DNA from: Parapedobacter koreensis
GTDB lineage: Bacteria; Bacteroidota; Bacteroidia; Sphingobacteriales; Sphingobacteriaceae
Assembly: GCF_900109365.1 (NCBI RefSeq)
Contig: NZ_FNZR01000007.1
Location: 186,001-250,000, forward strand
DNA length: 64,000 bases
Direction: 5' to 3'
Positions 7,428 to 33,417 of this stretch are shown piece after piece. The notes under the pieces are model-generated. The model made no database searches. It saw only the letters and a program-made list of their open reading frames with translations, and was not told the origin of the DNA. The translations under genes and the position numbers were made by a program. Each line of letters opens with the position of its first letter. The first letter of the stretch is position 1.

Positions 7428-10400
7428 TTACCTGACAACGCGCATGGTCCCGTTCATCCCCCGCCAGTGGCCGGGAAACGTACAGACATACGTATAGTCA
7501 CCTGGTTGCTCGGGCGCGGTAAACTCCAGCGTAAAACTTTCGCCCGGGTTTACCAGCGGCGTGTGGTGCAATACCTCAGGAATCGCAGGCACATACTGGC
7601 GCTCGAATGCTTCCGACGATCGCAACATATCATCAGCCGCCTTGCCGACAATATCCAACGTTCCGGGCTGGATGATTAACAGGTTGTGCTGCATACCGTC
7701 CGGATTTTCAAAGACAAGTGTAATTCGCTTGCCAGCGGGTACGGTAATCAACTTTTTATCATATTGCATGATGTCTTTGACCGCTTTCAGTTCAATGCGC
7801 TCCGATGGCACGCTGCTCTTGGGATCCGCCACCATTGCTGCCCCGCCATGGGCAAATGCGGCAGATTGGTGCGCTTTGGACAACCTCACGACAGTGTTAT
7901 TGATATTACCCGTGAATCCAGATGCGCCACCGTAGTCCGTGAACGCATAGGTCTCATCGAAGTCCTCGCCCGAACGTAGGTTAAGCGCCAACGGCTCGGC
8001 AAACAAGTGCATGATCTTGGCTTTGCCTTGGCTGGTACCATTTATGGATAGCTCAATTGAAGCATCCACCGTCACCCGCGCGTCGGCCACAAATTCACTG
8101 GGTAGGTTGCCACGCGAGGAGACGGTGGCCGTCTGGCCATGCTGGTAGACTTCAAAAAATAGCCGATTATTTTTGGTGTAAAGTGCGTAGCCAGCAGTTT
8201 TGTCACCCTGCCCCACAATCAATCCGTTGTAGGGTTGGTTATCCCGCCTGCGGACTTCCGTCTGGATATGGATTTTCTTGTTTGAGACATCCGGTGAGAA
8301 GGGGAAACGACTACGGCGGCCGAGCGTATACTGTTCATTGGCCAACGATTCGAGGATACGCCGGGCGAAGTTGCCCGTAGTTCGCGTAGACGCTAACTTA
8401 AAAAATGCGTCTTCGTGACGTGCAATCGCTGCGAACAGGGCTTGCGATAGCCACCTGTCGTTTTCGTTGGCTGGGTCACCGGTCGCTTCAAGCAGGGCTT
8501 TGGCAACAGCTTCCGACGCCGGATACTCGGCAAGCTTCACGAAAGCTGCCATACGGGTATTCAGGTTGGTATCGGCCAAGATACCGCTGTTCAGCAATGC
8601 ATCGCGGGAGCGGTCGTCTACCGGAAGCGCTTGGGCAGTTGCTTTCCGCACACCTGCCGAGGGATGCTTGAAACCTTTTACGACGGCGTCGAATACGTCC
8701 TGCCGCTCGGCGATCAGGTTTAGCCCCTGCAACGTCCAAAGGGCATGGATAGCCGGAGCATTCAGTCCGATTTTATCAACCTTTTGGTCCGATGCAATCC
8801 GGATTAGTTCATCCGCAACATCGTCCTGTTGCCGCTCCACCAGCAGCCGCTGGGCATGCATCCGCCAGAATTTATTGTCGCTTTTCAGCGCCTTTAACAG
8901 GCCGCCTGTGTCGTCCTTGGAAAGCTTATGGGAGGTTTTATGTTTTGCATCGGTATATACTAACCGGTAAACACGGCCGTATTTTTTATCGCGTAGGTCG
9001 CTCTCAAATGCATTTCCTGGGCCATGCGGTTGCTCAATGAACGGCAATACCTTGTCCGAAGGGGCCTGCGCCGGTACGAATACATTGTGTTGAATGATGA
9101 AATTATACCAGTCGAGTATCCAAACGGCACCGTCAGGACCGACTTCAGCGTGGATCGGGCCGAACCATTCGTCTGAACTAGCTGCCAGGTTCCAGCCATC
9201 GTGCTCCTTGAAGCCGGCGCCGTCAGGTTCGATGACGGCATTGTGTATCAAGCGTACCGTCGGTTCGGTTACAAAGGCGACCTTATTCCAATATGTTTGG
9301 GGATAGTCACGTGCGGTATAGAGCTGATGCCCTGCGGCCGATGTGAAGCCGCCGACCACATCCACCTGCCGGAGGTTGGGTGTCATGGCATGCACGTCAT
9401 AATGTCCATCGATTTTCTGAACGGCATTGATAGCGGGCCTCTGATCGTCCTCCTTGAACTGGCGCTGTACCAATTGTTCAGGCATCGAGTAATACGCACT
9501 ATGGGTATTGTTGGCTGTAGAAATAAAGACGTTGTTGTCTTCAGTCATGCCCAACCCCCACGTGTTATTGCTGGTGGTCGCCAGGTATTCGAAATCTGTG
9601 CCGTCCGGCCTGAAGCGATACACACCCTGGCCAAAAGCCAGCCGTTTGCCATTGATGTGTCCATTAAATCCTGCATAACCGGTGACACCCCAAATCTTGT
9701 TGTCAAACCCATACTGCAGATTGGAAGGCCCAGCGTGCGTATCATTCTTATTCCAGCCTGTCATTATCGTATCCCGCACATCAACGACGTTATCTCCGTC
9801 CGTGTCTTTCATAAAGATGAAATGCGGTGCCATGGCCACAATTACGCCATCATTGGCAAACGTAAGGCTGGTGGCGATATTCAGTCTGTCGGCAAATACC
9901 GTAAACTTATCCGCCACGCCGTCCCCGTCGGTATCTTCACATATCTTGATCCGGTCATTTGCCTCCCCTTTCAACTCCACGAAATTATTGGGATAGTCGA
10001 CGGTCTCGATGATCCACAGTCGCCCTTTTTCGTCCCAGCTCATCGCTATGGGATTAACGATATCTGGTTCAGAAGCAAATAGCTTCAACTCGAAACCAAC
10101 GGGAACTTGTATCAGTTTCGCTGATTCTTCCGGTGAGAGCGGCTCCTGCATTTTCGGCACAAAATGCCGTGCAGTGAAATCAGCGATGGTATCTTCATAG
10201 ATGCTCACACTTGGAATCTTCAATTGCGCGACCAATCCCATCACCCGGTCACCTATTGCCCATTGCACGCCTTTATTGATGGATCGCAGAAAATCCAGGT
10301 TTTTCCAGGTTGATTCATCGCTACCGTGCTCCGTATAAAATACACGGCCTTTCCCCTTGTTAAGCCGGTGTGCCAAGTCAGTCGCTAAGGTGTCTGTGAC

Positions 10401-27090: not shown

Positions 27091-27240
27091 ATGAAAATCA
27101 TCCTGATAACAGGAGCAAGCTGAGGAATTGGATCTGCCATGGCACTATTCGCGGCTAAGGAAGGATACGTCGTCGCTGAAACTACCGCAATGATAAAGCT
27201 GCCGCCGATGCGGTATTTTCACAAGCTACCGGGAATGTCT
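27091..27240 (+). pseudogene. short-chain dehydrogenase/reductase remnant with premature stop and frameshift
   Basis: The frame opens MKIILITGAS, then TGA stands where SDR proteins have Arg or Lys in TGASxGIG. It continues GIGSAMALFAAKEGYVVAE, which is the normal SDR start. Shortly after, the similarity moves to another frame (NDKAAADAV). The rest of the protein is missing. This is a decayed copy of an SDR gene. Confidence 0.7.
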
Positions 27241-27774
27241 ATGCTTCCCATCCATGCTGGATAGTGGCGAATCGAATCCGGATCGGCTAAAGGATAGTAT
27301 ATTAATATAAATATAACGAGGTGGTCCATGAACAAATTGCCCTGCTGTTCAGACAGCACGGAATAGCGCCGTTACTGACGGATTATATTTTTTACAAAGG
27401 GTAGGGCAAACTTCACCTACATGAAGGTCGTATAGGGCCTCATATATATTTCTTCAGACAACCAATATCTATAGCTCACATCCAGCACTCCATAACTCAG
27501 TATGAAACCAACTTCAATTCGCCACTTTTTTCTTAAAAAATTTGCATTTACCAACACAAATCCATAAATTTACTCAACGTTTATACAAAAAAACACATCA
27601 ACACAAATAAATAACACCAGTTATTCCATACAAAACATCACAAAAACCAATAAATAATACTTAATAGTCATGAAAATCAAATATTTATATGGATTCACTT
27701 GAAATATAACAATATCATGGAATTAAATTTATTATTTTTCACATATTTATAGTATATTTAACCTAACACATATC
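27241..27774. other. decayed, AT-rich stretch upstream of the cysteine-peptide locus
   Basis: The left part holds scraps of coding sequence, such as VVHEQIALLFRQHGIAPLL ending at a TAG near 27405, that I could not assign. From about 27,480 on, the DNA is extremely AT-rich and without protein-like frames. The last 60 bases must contain the promoter of the small peptide gene; TATATTTA at 27753-27760 is a near match to TAnnTTTG. Confidence 0.45.
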
Positions 27775-28005
27775 ATGAAATCACCTATTCAAAGAAAAAA
27801 AAGAGGCCTACTTTGTTTGTTGGTTGGCATCGCGTTAGCAACCCTCCCAATAGCTTATTTGAGCGCACAAGATTATTATGCTTGCATACCCGGAAGCAGC
27901 GGTTGGTGTGTTCCGGCATATTTCCCTAACGATGGAATGATGTGCACAAGTGGCCCTTTCCACAATTGCTCGGGAGACGTCAGTACACCGATATATCCCG
28001 AATAA
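27775..28005 (+). CDS. small secreted four-cysteine peptide
   Basis: The 76-residue product has a basic start (MKSPIQRKKRG), a hydrophobic helix (LLCLLVGIALATLPIAYL) and a signal cleavage site near SAQ. This leaves a mature peptide of about 44 residues. The mature part has four Cys (DYYAC, GWC, MMC, HNC) plus many Gly, Pro and Tyr, so two disulfides are possible. It does not match a family I can name. Its place before a propeller-like protein, a CxxC lipoprotein, a GLPGLI protein and an outer-membrane protein resembles NVEALA-type small peptide loci of Bacteroides, but the NVEALA motif itself is absent. A hairpin after the gene may keep its transcript more abundant than the rest of the locus. 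Confidence 0.7.
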   Translation: MKSPIQRKKRGLLCLLVGIALATLPIAYLSAQDYYACIPGSSGWCVPAYFPNDGMMCTSGPFHNCSGDVSTPIYPE

Positions 28006-28066
28006 TATAAGGAAATTAATCCAATTTCCATTGTTTAGCCAAAGGGGCACTTATTAGAATCAGCCG

Positions 28067-28108
28067 AGGAATGGGAAGCGAAAATTAGGTTTTCTTCCTA
28101 TTCCTTTT
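28067..28108 (+). terminator. hairpin after the small peptide gene (attenuator or terminator)
   Basis: Arms AGGAATGGGAAG and CTTCCTATTCCT pair over 12 bases with one G-U and are followed by TTTT. It is placed between the small peptide gene and the four large genes on the same strand. Partial read-through would give a high peptide to machinery ratio. Confidence 0.6.
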
Positions 28109-28195
28109 CATTGAATTTAGCACGCCTGAAAGTACTGGCAATACGATCTACTTCAAGATACGCCATTCTTCCGTCATATTCTCATATCAAATGAA

Positions 28196-29317
28196 ATGTC
28201 ATCCCTTGACAAAAAGATCTATACTATGTTAAAATACCAATTGTTATTGCTATGGCCTTTCCTATTAAGCCAACTATCGATTCCCACTTCCGCTCAACAG
28301 CTTGTTAAAAAGAATAGTTATACCTTTTATTTGCCTAAATCAAGTGGGTTCCAACCAAACGCTTCCGCTGTTGATCTCCAGCGCGGTGAATATCTGCGGA
28401 CAATCAGCTTACCAAGGCCGAGCTTAGAAATTTATAATTTAAACGATGGGAAATTAAAACAACGCATTCCGGTACAGGCTCAAAAACTAGGTGCGTTTGT
28501 CAGGGTTTCGGACGATAGGCTGTGGATTTTTGATAGCTATAAAAGAAGATACCTTTTTGTGGATAGCAGCGGAACTATCATAAAAGCTGTGGATGAAATG
28601 GATAAGGAGTACGATGGTGAACTAGCCGCGACCTATCCTGATTGGCAATTCAATCCACTAACATTCTATGATGGCAGAATATACTGTGTTTCCGCGCTTT
28701 TTATCTATGATCAAAAGGTTGAACCTAGGTCGTCCCGATTCCAAAACCAAGGGATGGTACGCGTTTTTGACACTCGATCCAATCACGTATCGTGGGCCGC
28801 TACTAATACCATTAAAAGCCTAAAGCACAATTTTGGGTATATCAATCGGTACAGCTATGCACGGGCAAAAGACCACTTGGTCATCTCGCCTGCGTTTTCC
28901 ACCGAACTGTTGGTACTCAATCTCAAAAACAACTATCATTTTTATCCAGACATCAAAGACACGTTATATAACGAGTTAATTCAGCCTATCGCAAGCTGGA
29001 AAAAATATATCTCATTAAAGGACCCCGCAATCTTGAAGCACTATTATACCAATGCGCAATTTGTTGGTATTATGTACGACCATTTCCGGGATCGATATTA
29101 CCGCTTTCTTATCTTACCTAAAAATCGCGCCGGCCAACACGAAACTAAACTGATTGTTCTCGATAAGTACTTGGAGCGGTTGTCGACCCATACGATACCG
29201 ATGCGATATCGATTGGATGGAGCGTTTATCGATGAACATGGTTTGAACTTACTGGATTATGATAAGTATTTGAACAATTATGACCAACTCGTATTTGACA
29301 CACTCTTATTTGAATGA
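28196..29317 (+). CDS. secreted six-bladed beta-propeller-like protein
   Basis: The 373-residue product has a signal peptide; an internal ATG at 28226 gives a neater one (MLKYQLLLLWPFLLSQL...TSAQ). The mature part is rich in beta strands with spaced aromatic and Asp-Gly repeats (GAFVRVSDDRLWIFDSY, NPLTFYDGRIYC). This resembles the six-bladed propeller proteins that accompany small secreted peptides in Bacteroidota. No enzyme motif is visible. A binding role in the periplasm is inferred. The stop is one base before the ATG of the next lipoprotein gene, so they are translated together. Confidence 0.6.
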   Translation: MSSLDKKIYTMLKYQLLLLWPFLLSQLSIPTSAQQLVKKNSYTFYLPKSSGFQPNASAVDLQRGEYLRTISLPRPSLEIYNLNDGKLKQRIPVQAQKLGAFVRVSDDRLWIFDSYKRRYLFVDSSGTIIKAVDEMDKEYDGELAATYPDWQFNPLTFYDGRIYCVSALFIYDQKVEPRSSRFQNQGMVRVFDTRSNHVSWAATNTIKSLKHNFGYINRYSYARAKDHLVISPAFSTELLVLNLKNNYHFYPDIKDTLYNELIQPIASWKKYISLKDPAILKHYYTNAQFVGIMYDHFRDRYYRFLILPKNRAGQHETKLIVLDKYLERLSTHTIPMRYRLDGAFIDEHGLNLLDYDKYLNNYDQLVFDTLLFE

Positions 29318-29318
29318 A

Positions 29319-29747
29319 ATGCGGACATCAATTTTAGTATTAGTATTGGCTTTCAGCTTGGTGGCATGCGAAAACAACGGTTCGATTAGTACAGAGAATA
29401 CCTTAAAAATTGTGAGAACAAGTTTTGAAAGCTTTTTAGAAGATAACGGCAAGTCTAAATCCGATTATACCCGCATTTTGGTGATCCCAAACGCAGGCTG
29501 CACCGGCTGTATTTCCAGAGCCGAATCCTTTTTCCTGGAACAGTATAATGACCAGAAAATTCTCTTTATCTTTACCTTGATATCGGATATCAAGCTATTC
29601 GAATCGGGCCGTATAGGCCCTTACATCAGCAATGACAATGTGATTGTTGACCAACGGGGTCAATTGCCTAAACTAGGCTTTCATTCACAATACCCCTGTG
29701 TCCTGAAAGGTGAAGACAACGAATATATTGCCCTAGTTCCGTTTTGA
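29319..29747 (+). CDS. lipoprotein with a thioredoxin-like CxxC site
   Basis: The 142-residue protein starts at the ATG at 29319 with a lipoprotein signal (LVLAFSLVAC, Cys17). A beta strand then leads into NAGCTGCISRAESFF, with Cys61 and Cys64 at the start of a helix, as in thioredoxin folds. The rest is short for a full thioredoxin domain, so it may be a trimmed version. A disulfide-exchange or metal-holding role is inferred. It is notable that the first gene of the locus encodes a four-cysteine secreted peptide that could be its substrate. Confidence 0.65.
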   Translation: MRTSILVLVLAFSLVACENNGSISTENTLKIVRTSFESFLEDNGKSKSDYTRILVIPNAGCTGCISRAESFFLEQYNDQKILFIFTLISDIKLFESGRIGPYISNDNVIVDQRGQLPKLGFHSQYPCVLKGEDNEYIALVPF

Positions 29748-29756
29748 CGAAAATCT

Positions 29757-30680
29757 ATGATCATGACTAAACGTACGACCTCAGCATTCATGCTACTGCA
29801 CAAATGTTGCCTGTTAGTGGAAATAATTGTCTTATGTACATCGAATGTCCCTGTGTCTGCACAATCTATCCCAGCGGATTCCATCTTATACCAGGTCTAT
29901 TATGAACTAAACCATATTACGAATAAAGACCAGCCAGATTTTATATTAAAAGACCGCATGCTGTTGCTCGTGGGGCAACGGGCGAGTCGATACACAAGCT
30001 ATGACAAACTATGCTTTGGTGCCGAATACCAGCAACGAGTGACGGAGGAGCAAAGCAACGCTAAAATTGGCGATGAACCGTTTAGGATAAAGCTCCCGCA
30101 AAGTCAGTGTACACTCGATGAATATTTTCTTGATCATCGCGCCCAAACCTGTTACGTCGTCGACTACCTACAAGGTGTCTATTTGTATAATAGCGATTAT
30201 CCTACTCAAAATTGGACAATATCCGATGAAAGCAAGGAGATATTGGGACTACCGTGCCTGAAAGCGACAACAACATTCGGTGGGCGGGATTGGGTAGCTT
30301 GGTATACGCCCAAAATCCCGTTGCAATCCGGCCCCTGGCTGCTGCATGGACTGCCGGGCCTGATTGTCGAAGCCAATGACCTTAGCAGGGAGGTCGTGTT
30401 CTCCTTGCAAGCTATTGAGCACCATACGGCTGAAGCCGTTACAAATGATCCGGCTCTGGCTTTGTATGTCGGCGCCACCATCCAATTGCCGACCGATATT
30501 GCCATACCCACACAACGAAAAAATTTCGAGCGAATGAAACAAAAAGCGTTAGCCAGCCCGAGGGCATTTCTCTCATCGTTACCAGAAAACTGGTTTAAGT
30601 TTGTTGATTACAAAACTTTTTTCGGCATGTTATGGATATCCAGACCACCGATCACCAATCCAATCGCTTTGATAGACTAG
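29757..30680 (+). CDS. GLPGLI-family protein
   Basis: The 307-residue product has a signal peptide ending near VSAQ (36) and the family hallmark GLPGLI at 198-203, within WLLHGLPGLIVEAND. GLPGLI proteins are exported Bacteroidota proteins of unknown function, frequently next to outer-membrane receptors with carboxypeptidase-regulatory domains, as here. Four Cys in the mature part (near 86, 118, 132 and 167) could form disulfides. It follows the CxxC lipoprotein by 9 bases and precedes the outer-membrane protein by 10 bases. Confidence 0.9.
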   Translation: MIMTKRTTSAFMLLHKCCLLVEIIVLCTSNVPVSAQSIPADSILYQVYYELNHITNKDQPDFILKDRMLLLVGQRASRYTSYDKLCFGAEYQQRVTEEQSNAKIGDEPFRIKLPQSQCTLDEYFLDHRAQTCYVVDYLQGVYLYNSDYPTQNWTISDESKEILGLPCLKATTTFGGRDWVAWYTPKIPLQSGPWLLHGLPGLIVEANDLSREVVFSLQAIEHHTAEAVTNDPALALYVGATIQLPTDIAIPTQRKNFERMKQKALASPRAFLSSLPENWFKFVDYKTFFGMLWISRPPITNPIALID

Positions 30681-30690
30681 CACACAATCC

Positions 30691-33384
30691 ATGTTCAGCC
30701 GGATCATGTCTGCTTACTTGTTACAACTAGTCACCGTACAGGTTATGTTACTAGTGTCGCTGTCCATATCTGCCACCGCGCAACAAATCTCGTTAGCAGG
30801 CACGGTTAGCGATGAGCAGGGAGTCCCCGTTCCGCTGGCCAACGTACTCATCAAGCAACGGAAAAACGAAAAACTCCTTTACTTCAAAGCAACGGATAAC
30901 AATGGCGCTTTTGTCCTGAATCTACCTAGTGAAACCATACTTACCTACTTCTATTTGGAGGTTACCCACGTATCCTATCGTACGATAAAAATTGAACTCG
31001 AAAAAGGCAAGAATTTTTACGAAATCAGGCTGAGCCGGCAGCGTGTTCACTTAGATGAGGTATCCGTAGGTATAAAGCCGCGCATTAACGCTTCGGGCGA
31101 TACCATCCGCTATGACGTCAACTCTTTCGCCACCCAGCTCGACCGTAGTGTAGGAGATGCCTTAAAACGTATGCCGGGCTTCGAGGTCGAACAAAACGGG
31201 CGTATTCTTTACCAAGGGCAGGCTATTTCGCACCTGTACATCGATGGCGACGATTTATTGGAAGGGAAGTACGGAATCGGTACCCGGGCAATACCGCATG
31301 CTATCGTACAGGGGGTGGAAGTCTATAAAAATCATCAAGACATCAAAGTGCTCCAAGACCGGGTTGTGTCGCGCGACATTACAATTAACCTGGTCATAGC
31401 GGATAAAGCGAAGATGCGGCTAAATGGCGAAGCAAAATTGGGTGGGGGATGGCCTGAACAATATGTTAGCGAATTAAACGCCATCGTATTCAATGACAAA
31501 ATCAAGATGCTGGATGCGCTTAAGGGTAACAATGCGGGCATCGACATTAGGGAAGACCTTCAAGACCTGACAGGCCAAGCGGCTACGAATCTCGAACGCC
31601 ATAGCCAGCCATTGCTGTCTTCCGGCACTGCCGGCGCGCCCAACCTCCCCAAAGCCCGGCACTACCTGAATAACAGCGTGGGCTTATTTGCGCACCACCT
31701 GGTAACTCTGGACGCTGATTGGCAAGTCCGTGCGAACATAGACCTTTTTGCCGACCGGAACAAACTCATATACGACAATCAAAACATGATTTTCGGCGAA
31801 ATGGATTCAATTTCTTTTACCGAACAACTGTATCGGGTCAACAAGCCGTTTTTAACCGAGGGAAGCTTACGTGTACATAAAAACACCAAAAAGACTTACC
31901 TGAATAATTTGCTGAAATTCAATTATTCCAGAGACTACTCAGCAGCAGAACTTAGTGGTGATGAGCAGTTGATTGACCAACGTTTAAAACAACAGCAGTG
32001 GTTCTTTGACAATCATTTCCAATACTTCCCCATGTTGAAGGGCAAGGACGTGCTGAAGTTTTCGGGAAGGGTTGCAACCAATAAGGCTCCCGAGCAACTG
32101 GTGTTGGCTTCTCCGCAGAAGCCGATTGTTGACGTCCCTTCGATGTCCTTATCATGGCTGCGACAACGGGTCACCACGAGAACGACCCATGCCGAACTAA
32201 ATATCGAATACTTATTGAAACCTACGTGGTTTTCCCACCGCTACAATTTGCAGGCATTTAGCGAATGGCAGTCTTTGCACTCTTCACTGAACCCAATCGA
32301 AGGTGAACAGGTTCTTGACGAAATAACTACTGGAAATGCCTTGCAATGGCGAAGGTCATATGCACTCCTAGGAAGCACATATGAGATCAAACGAAGTAAT
32401 TTCACGCTTTCTGCTACCTTACCCCTGCGTTTGCAGCAAATCAGCTACGATGATGCGCAGTTTGCGTTGAATCGCGGACAGGTCGACTGGTTATTTGATC
32501 CATCACTCGAGATAAGCAAAAAAATAGGGCAACAACATGAAGTGGCGGGACACTACGGCTATAGCAACACGTTTGGTAACATGCAAAATATCTATCAGGG
32601 TGCCATCATGACCAACTACCGGACACTGCTTGCCAACGACACGGTATTGCAGCGAAACCGTGGCCACCATGCAGGTTTTGCGGTTAAGCTGGCAAACGCT
32701 CCGGATATGCTATTTGTTAATCTGGGGTATGACTACGCTCATGTAGCGTCCAATGTGATGATGTCTTATCAGGTCACCGAACAATTGACAAGTGTGGTGG
32801 CACTTCCGCTCACCAATAGACAAACCCAGCACAACGCCGTCGCAGGTATCAGTAAATTTTTGTTTTTCTTGGGCGTTAAATCGGGTATAACAGCCAAATG
32901 GTCATTAACAAACGACAACCAACTTGTCAACGATGCGCTGCTACCCTACCGGAATCGCATGTTTTCGTTGAGCCCTGATTTGAATGCAAAGCTCCTCGGG
33001 CGTATAAACGTAGCGTACATAGGTAATTGGTCTTGGCTACACAATGAACCCCGGCAGCGGGGGCTCCCTTTTTCACAGCGATTAGTAACGTTCAGCCAGT
33101 CCGTCCAACTCTACTATTCTCCATCAGCAATGTTGGATATCGGGCTTAAAGGCCAGCAGTTATACACCAAACAAAGAGAACAGGCCAACTACAATTATTT
33201 TTTCATGGATGCCAATGCTCGTTATAAAATCCCAACGTGGCGGATAGTGCTTGAATTTGACCTTTTCAATATCGCAAACATCAAGACATTTGAGTACATC
33301 GCGTTGACAACGAACTCACGGCATAATAATCGCTATCAAATCCGTGGCCGTATGGCACTCGTCAAGGCAGCCTTTACATTTTGA
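30691..33384 (+). CDS. outer-membrane beta-barrel protein with carboxypeptidase-regulatory-like domain, TonB-receptor-like
   Basis: The 897-residue protein has a signal peptide ending near ATAQ (30) and a carboxypeptidase-regulatory-like domain (about 32-115, with LAGTVSDEQGVPVPLANVLI). A plug-like domain follows (VGDALKRMPGFEVEQNGRI, then YIDGDDLLEG). The remainder is a long barrel with alternating aromatic strands ending in Phe (AAFTF). This layout is that of TonB-dependent receptor-like partners of GLPGLI proteins. No clear TonB box was identified. It may carry the small peptide or its ligand across the outer membrane. It is the last gene of the locus. Confidence 0.85.
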   Translation: MFSRIMSAYLLQLVTVQVMLLVSLSISATAQQISLAGTVSDEQGVPVPLANVLIKQRKNEKLLYFKATDNNGAFVLNLPSETILTYFYLEVTHVSYRTIKIELEKGKNFYEIRLSRQRVHLDEVSVGIKPRINASGDTIRYDVNSFATQLDRSVGDALKRMPGFEVEQNGRILYQGQAISHLYIDGDDLLEGKYGIGTRAIPHAIVQGVEVYKNHQDIKVLQDRVVSRDITINLVIADKAKMRLNGEAKLGGGWPEQYVSELNAIVFNDKIKMLDALKGNNAGIDIREDLQDLTGQAATNLERHSQPLLSSGTAGAPNLPKARHYLNNSVGLFAHHLVTLDADWQVRANIDLFADRNKLIYDNQNMIFGEMDSISFTEQLYRVNKPFLTEGSLRVHKNTKKTYLNNLLKFNYSRDYSAAELSGDEQLIDQRLKQQQWFFDNHFQYFPMLKGKDVLKFSGRVATNKAPEQLVLASPQKPIVDVPSMSLSWLRQRVTTRTTHAELNIEYLLKPTWFSHRYNLQAFSEWQSLHSSLNPIEGEQVLDEITTGNALQWRRSYALLGSTYEIKRSNFTLSATLPLRLQQISYDDAQFALNRGQVDWLFDPSLEISKKIGQQHEVAGHYGYSNTFGNMQNIYQGAIMTNYRTLLANDTVLQRNRGHHAGFAVKLANAPDMLFVNLGYDYAHVASNVMMSYQVTEQLTSVVALPLTNRQTQHNAVAGISKFLFFLGVKSGITAKWSLTNDNQLVNDALLPYRNRMFSLSPDLNAKLLGRINVAYIGNWSWLHNEPRQRGLPFSQRLVTFSQSVQLYYSPSAMLDIGLKGQQLYTKQREQANYNYFFMDANARYKIPTWRIVLEFDLFNIANIKTFEYIALTTNSRHNNRYQIRGRMALVKAAFTF

Positions 33385-33417
33385 CGCCCGTAAAAAGGCT
33401 GGCATACAGCACAATGC

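Follow-up and report, generated by a model that had tools for sequence, protein, structure and literature searches.

Five same-strand genes of Parapedobacter koreensis, at positions 27775 to 33384 of a 64,000-nucleotide stretch of contig NZ_FNZR01000007.1 (the whole stretch analysed, hereafter the window), encode a secreted mini-protein that carries four cysteines, a β-propeller, a lipoprotein with a CxxC motif, a GLPGLI family protein and a TonB-receptor-like outer-membrane protein, referred to below as the barrel. In the loci that we compared, a propeller/CxxC pair was about twenty times more likely than other genes to have a secreted cysteine peptide upstream. We propose that the locus serves to mature the peptide and to move it through the cell envelope, and put the probability of export-type trafficking with thiol chemistry at about 0.5. 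The protein families involved are already named; the module that they form is of a known but unexplained kind.

Cysteine peptides and the recurring core

Peptides were counted by a fixed rule: an ATG, GTG or TTG start, a length of 40–130 residues, an N-terminus in which a hydrophobic stretch follows a basic residue, four or more cysteines beyond it, and a stop codon on the same strand no more than 400 bases upstream of the gene in question. Genes with less than 500 bases of upstream sequence were left out. The rule picked out a peptide at 14 of 23 propeller/CxxC loci, the window itself included; among other genes of 150 residues or more in the fetched loci, it did so before 25 of 821. About eight of these 25 control positives (L200, L202, L205, L207, and two each in L209 and L210) stand in module loci, ahead of a propeller, a lipoprotein of propeller size or an HlyD gene; they are probably kin of the module peptides, and the control rate is therefore, if anything, too high. 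By eye, L120, whose peptide has a long N-terminus, and L159 and L160, with 12-cysteine lipopeptides, also qualify, bringing the count to 17 of 23. The remaining six are L156, L161, L162, L204, L165, where a six-cysteine open reading frame (ORF) lies on the opposite strand, and L206, where the candidate has two cysteines only. The 23 loci are not all independent, as L151/L152 and L159/L160 are close pairs. Seven loci from repeated genomes (L163, L164 and L166–L170) had been dropped before the count, as had nine without a recognised propeller within two genes (L050, L150, L158, L203, L205, L207, L208, L209 and L211); L150, L205, L207 and L209 among them do carry upstream cysteine peptides. The association reaches beyond the family.

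The peptides resemble one another very little in sequence, and their cysteine spacings vary. Many have exactly four cysteines in the mature part, others six, seven or 12, and the 12 mature peptides that we measured are acidic or neutral, with charges of 0 to −8. One CxxC lipoprotein is preceded by a tandem set of four paralogous four-cysteine peptides (L150:9717-11007); the position matches that of a Mucilaginibacter dorajii record.

A first-pass annotation of the window had put forward a five-gene system. Its peptide, propeller and CxxC components do form a recurrent unit, the module, but the GLPGLI and barrel genes are not part of the core. A search of 150 relatives with the GLPGLI protein gave matches in 62, from which 45 loci were fetched, mostly the stronger ones and including two in the genome of the window itself. 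The barrel was present in 39 of these 45 loci, and a recognised propeller beside a CxxC relative in none (0/45). In loci lacking the module, a qualifying peptide lay within 600 bases of 5 of 69 GLPGLI genes. The GLPGLI–barrel pair was accordingly rejected as the module core, being common by itself. Tandem GLPGLI arrays occur in L037 (eight matches) and L049 (seven matches), each within 20 kb and with one barrel gene.

The CxxC profile, by comparison, matched 26 of 399 genomes of the family. Eighteen of these loci were fetched, the window included, the other eight being weak hits. A same-strand propeller was found in 17 of the 18 and directly adjoins the CxxC gene in 15, counting L154, where both genes are broken; the two are one gene apart in L117 and two genes (about 4 kb) apart in L150, and L158 has no propeller. 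We used this profile in place of a single-sequence propeller search, which found 4 of 201 family genomes and, among 295 genomes of the class, only itself. One of the four, G013 (L118), holds a piece of propeller and no CxxC gene. At the level of the phylum, the CxxC search matched 25 of 296 genomes, many weakly, and the regions of six were fetched besides the window's, the others being weak; a scan of named genomes returned 10 loci, seven of them already in the set. These wider searches added loci from Prevotella oulorum, a Cytophagales metagenome-assembled genome (MAG), a Sphingobacteriia MAG and genomes G409, which matches a Cyclobacteriaceae MAG, G918, G293 and G459.

All four large genes (GLPGLI, barrel, propeller and CxxC) occur together in the window, L120, L155, L165 and, in decayed form, L154. 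In this last locus (L154:8279-9926) the propeller and CxxC genes are broken, the GLPGLI gene is open and the barrel gene is shortened; the genes keep the window's order, and no peptide was seen. In another family of the class, L050:40-7989, one of the 45 GLPGLI-anchored loci, has a CxxC relative (E 4.9e-10, motif GCKGC) that follows a 392-residue lipoprotein not picked up by the propeller profile. Two GLPGLI genes, each preceded by a secreted four-cysteine ORF, and a barrel gene run convergent to it. The locus could represent a distant variant of the module. On the Phocaeicola massiliensis plasmid OY725998.1 (L253), Wzy_C, a DUF4221 propeller, a CxxC lipoprotein, MG2 and a signal peptidase are encoded in a row, in which no peptide was seen by eye.

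The genes that accompany the module vary. Partners were surveyed within 7.5 kb in 30 CxxC-matching loci, 25 of which have a recognised propeller; labels were assigned by similarity to proteins, some of which had been scanned against Pfam, and the helix-turn-helix (HTH) and LytTR names are our reading. We counted Wzy_C in seven loci, RND in seven, HlyD in six, a barrel in six, MG2 in five, GLPGLI in four, HTH in four, LytTR-like in three, signal-peptidase-like in two and TolC in two; L200 and L210 overlap within one genome. The corresponding counts in the 45 GLPGLI-anchored loci are four for RND, four for HlyD, two each for LytTR-like and signal-peptidase-like, and one each for Wzy_C, MG2 and TolC. 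RND efflux genes lie no more than 7.5 kb from the CxxC gene in L151, L152, L153, L200, L202, L209 and L210, and in L151 and L152 they stand on both sides of it.

The locus and the block that carries it

The ORFs, their strand and their coordinates (Table 1) bear out the first-pass description of the locus, including a signal-bearing 76-residue peptide with four mature cysteines, a propeller-like protein, a lipoprotein with the motif C61-T-G-C64 at a putative thioredoxin-like site, a GLPGLI protein and a carboxypeptidase-regulatory/TonB-receptor-like protein. Gaps of 1 to 10 bases had been reported for the last four genes and are 1, 9 and 10 bases. The peptide gene, separated from the propeller gene by 190 bases, is linked less tightly.

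Table 1. Features of the locus, in window coordinates
Feature	Position	Strand	Basis or context
Strain-specific block	27404..33417	.	Flanked by a DinB-like remnant and an msrA-like gene
Secreted mini-protein, 76 residues	27775..28005	+	ORF list and translation
DUF4221 β-propeller, secreted, without lipobox Cys	28196..29317	+	PF13970, E 1.8e-9
Lipoprotein with CxxC, predicted thioredoxin-like	29319 (ATG)..29747 (stop)	+	Lipobox C17; invariant Cys in alignments
C-T-G-C motif codons (C61/C64)	29499..29510	+	Translation
GLPGLI family protein	29757..30680	+	TIGR01200, E 1.7e-40; Porph_ging, E 7.1e-10
TonB-receptor-like outer-membrane protein with carboxypeptidase-regulatory-like N-terminal domain	30691..33384	+	PF13715 (CarbopepD_reg_2), E 5.4e-8

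Judged by eye, the signal segment of the peptide spans approximately residues 1–31, with likely cleavage after residue 31, between LSA and Q. This would leave a mature peptide of 45 residues with cysteines at positions 37, 45, 57 and 65 and a net charge of −4; a fifth cysteine, C14, falls inside the signal peptide. The peptide is single-copy in its genome and belongs to no Pfam or NCBIfam family at E ≤ 1.

For the propeller, a start at 28226 suits a signal peptide better than the one at 28196. The protein scores 38.1 bits against DUF4221 (PF13970), above the curated cut-off of 23.4. The best match of its model (mean predicted local distance difference test score, pLDDT, 66.1) in the PDB is the DUF4221 protein 3s9j (Foldseek E 9.4e-17, TM-score 0.68), which the propeller profile also recovers from PDB sequences at E 2.1e-48. 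Fold matches ranking under 3s9j are generic propellers, the Bacteroides B12 lipoproteins 8okv and 8bmx among them. The lipobox cysteine, missing here, is kept in all ten other rows of the alignment.

Across 16 aligned CxxC lipoproteins, the lipobox cysteine and the CxxC residues, within a family motif GCxGC, are the only invariant positions. The fold is predicted to be thioredoxin-like, although thioredoxin models in Pfam and NCBIfam give no match at E ≤ 1; against PDB sequences, the profile has FetE as its sole match at E ≤ 0.01. The GLPGLI protein reaches 139.2 bits against a TIGR01200 cut-off of 50 and contains the sequence HGLPGLIV. The barrel matches Plug at E 0.1, under the cut-off, and the SusC/RagA model TIGR04056 in its N-terminal part only (E 5.6e-9; 34.9 bits against a cut-off of 368.25), too low to place it in that family. 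None of the five proteins matched a PADLOC-DB family at E ≤ 0.01, and a reading of the locus as an anti-phage defence system was rejected.

The five genes sit in a block of about 6.0 kb at a site that is empty in genus mates. In one genus mate (G004, L249), the positions corresponding to window 27403 and 33423 are 19 bases apart, at 8142 and 8161, and genes that we read as DinB-like and msrA-like end towards each other there. DinB adjoins msrA without the block in L248, L249 and L251, three of five genus regions fetched; L250 has different genes at the site and the L252 stretch lacks msrA. The DinB remnant in the window occupies 27326-27403, and 27094-27176 matches the start of a dehydrogenase-like gene that lies beside DinB in G005. 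The edge of the block is marked by these two remnants (27094-27403), whose counterparts in genus mates are open reading frames. Eight genus mates gave no match to the propeller, the CxxC protein or the CxxC profile. Because of the empty site and the lack of propeller or CxxC matches in genus mates, the five genes, peptide included, seem to have been acquired as a unit; loss in relatives or stepwise assembly may be an alternative to single acquisition.

The first three genes have a GC content at third codon positions (GC3) of 0.40–0.46; over 40 window ORFs the mean is 0.547 (standard deviation 0.054), a difference that is suggestive only. No repeats were found at the block ends; a single imperfect pair lies inside. 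The Bacteroidota promoter pattern TTTG..TAnnTTTG occurs four times in the window and not at the locus, which is chance level, and sigma-70-like sites are likewise at chance level.

Relation to NVEALA loci and other known systems

A likeness to NVEALA-type loci, with a peptide lacking that motif, had been noted in the first pass, and it holds for the layout and not for the peptide family. As in NVEALA/TolB_like (PF15869) loci, which combine short signal-bearing cysteine peptides with propellers and CxxC lipoproteins and also contain Wzy_C and signal peptidase genes, the window has a cysteine peptide beside a propeller and a CxxC lipoprotein. The Pfam text reportedly notes propellers beside NVEALA. 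However, the window propeller is DUF4221 rather than TolB_like, no signal peptidase or Wzy_C gene stands beside the peptide, and the peptide, compared by Pfam scan only, has no NVEALA match at E ≤ 1 and no such motif. Of 198 class genomes, four have NVEALA (PF14055) peptides, three of them above the family cut-off; the window's own genome is among these three. In five fetched regions, 14 ORFs carry the NVEALA motif; after it, six have four cysteines, five have two, two have three and one has six.

The window's genome itself has an NVEALA locus on contig C7 (G000:C7:193000-212900; L227, L228), with three peptides. Its products include a signal peptidase, Wzy_C, a CxxC protein that weakly matches redoxin, TolB_like propellers and one of DUF5128. 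The gene of a DUF4221 propeller is followed there by a short ORF related to the CxxC family, truncated and lacking an intact CxxC. An HlyD gene is also present, with genes that we read as RND and TolC.

Other resemblances are to single components. By Pfam and fold the window propeller belongs to DUF4221 (3s9j), differing in its missing lipobox cysteine. ResA/CcmG-type and FetE oxidoreductases are likewise membrane-anchored, with a CxxC motif and the thioredoxin-like fold predicted here, whereas the window family has GCxGC, its own genomic context and no thioredoxin model match. The last two genes form a GLPGLI–TonB-receptor-like barrel pair of a kind common in the family, but the 45 fetched loci with such genes lack a recognised trio of peptide, propeller and CxxC lipoprotein. 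TonB-dependent barrels that work with partners, outward in Oar/PopC and inward with a propeller lipoprotein in BtuG/BtuB, offer a functional analogy only. Among open-licence PubMed Central (PMC) papers we found none on NVEALA or DUF4221, and absence there is not absence in print.

A trafficking model and its rivals

In the model that we favour, the peptide would enter the periplasm by Sec and lose its signal peptide, which is seen in the sequence. The CxxC lipoprotein may then form, isomerise or reduce the peptide's two disulfides, because its CxxC is invariant, its predicted fold is thioredoxin-like and its adjacency is recurrent. The propeller, usually a lipoprotein and here secreted and unanchored, would bind the peptide, docking or escorting it, and an exchangeable device would carry the peptide over the outer membrane or modify it. 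Here that device would be the GLPGLI protein with the TonB-receptor-like barrel; elsewhere, RND/HlyD/TolC pumps, MG2 or a Wzy_C-TPR protein may take its place. The released acidic peptide could serve as an extracellular signal or be directed against neighbouring cells as an effector. Disulfide exchange, propeller binding, the passage over the outer membrane and its direction, and the biological role are what we infer from these arrangements. Export after Sec entry would unite the different partners, for two reasons. RND pumps are able to take substrates from the periplasm. And a TonB-dependent barrel, Oar, takes part in PopC secretion in Myxococcus (PMC6434023).

Two observations weigh against this model. 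A conserved gene order holds for the propeller and the CxxC gene, which adjoin in most loci, but the exact five-gene order with the peptide was seen in no fetched locus but the window. Nor does the window peptide have a detectable sequence homologue. A profile built from 14 other four-cysteine peptides (leaving out L150b, L152 as a near copy of L151, peptides with other cysteine numbers, and two from comparison loci, L077 and L209) was compared with the window peptide and 1000 shuffles, of which 97 scored equally well; direct homology to the peptides of other loci is thus not supported, and kinship is one of position and layout only. A search of 201 family genomes with the peptide gave matches at E ≤ 1 in 79, a chance-like number, the best non-self match (E 6.6e-4) having an internal stop. 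The refuting condition set in the first pass, that the peptide or the four large genes normally occur apart, gives a split outcome: the propeller/CxxC pair recurs with peptides, but the GLPGLI–barrel pair is common without a recognised propeller/CxxC pair.

The lack of a detectable homologue lends weight to the view that the propeller and CxxC lipoprotein do general envelope or redox upkeep and that an unrelated exported peptide lies upstream by chance, as do the 190-base gap after the peptide and the frequency of GLPGLI–barrel pairs on their own. The enrichment of upstream cysteine peptides, within the family and beyond it, leads us to regard such a coincidence as rather improbable. Inward traffic would be the main rival to export, although we consider it unlikely. 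The secreted peptide would bind a metal or small ligand, the barrel, with the propeller as lid or dock, would bring the loaded peptide or the ligand back in, and the CxxC lipoprotein would reduce or unload it. BtuG propeller lipoproteins reportedly work in this sense with the TonB-dependent transporter BtuB in vitamin B12 uptake, and the presence of 8okv and 8bmx among the propeller fold matches and of FetE as the CxxC profile's match is consistent with it. Yet the fold matches below 3s9j are generic, the cysteine spacings differ among peptides, unlike a fixed metal site, and the RND/HlyD/TolC partners found elsewhere suit outward movement better.

The strain-specific block, the strong divergence of the peptides, the tandem paralogues in L150 and LytTR or HTH genes near 3 and 4 of the 30 loci, respectively, could also fit a bacteriocin-type competition cassette, in which the peptide would be lethal or inhibitory to related cells and an accessory protein would confer immunity; LytTR, however, also occurs in 2 of the 45 comparison loci. 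Typical pore formers are cationic, unlike the mature peptides here, bacteriocin families give no match above cut-off and no constant immunity-like gene was seen; we consider this reading unlikely as well.

More tentatively, the module may represent a Bacteroidota-wide class, possible though doubtful on present evidence and absent as such from the papers searched, of Sec-secreted disulfide-bonded mini-proteins with a dedicated CxxC lipoprotein, a propeller escort and interchangeable outer-membrane exporters, whether a TonB-type barrel or RND/TolC. NVEALA would be its best annotated branch and the window a minimal one-block branch. If the proposed reading of the locus is right, DUF4221, GLPGLI and NVEALA-like peptides, families named without function in Pfam and NCBIfam, would gain a testable role. 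Further overlooked secreted peptides would be predicted, since such peptides share little beyond position, signal peptide and number of cysteines and so escape profile searches. Bacteroidota cells might then have a route besides type IX secretion for placing small disulfide-bonded proteins outside the cell.

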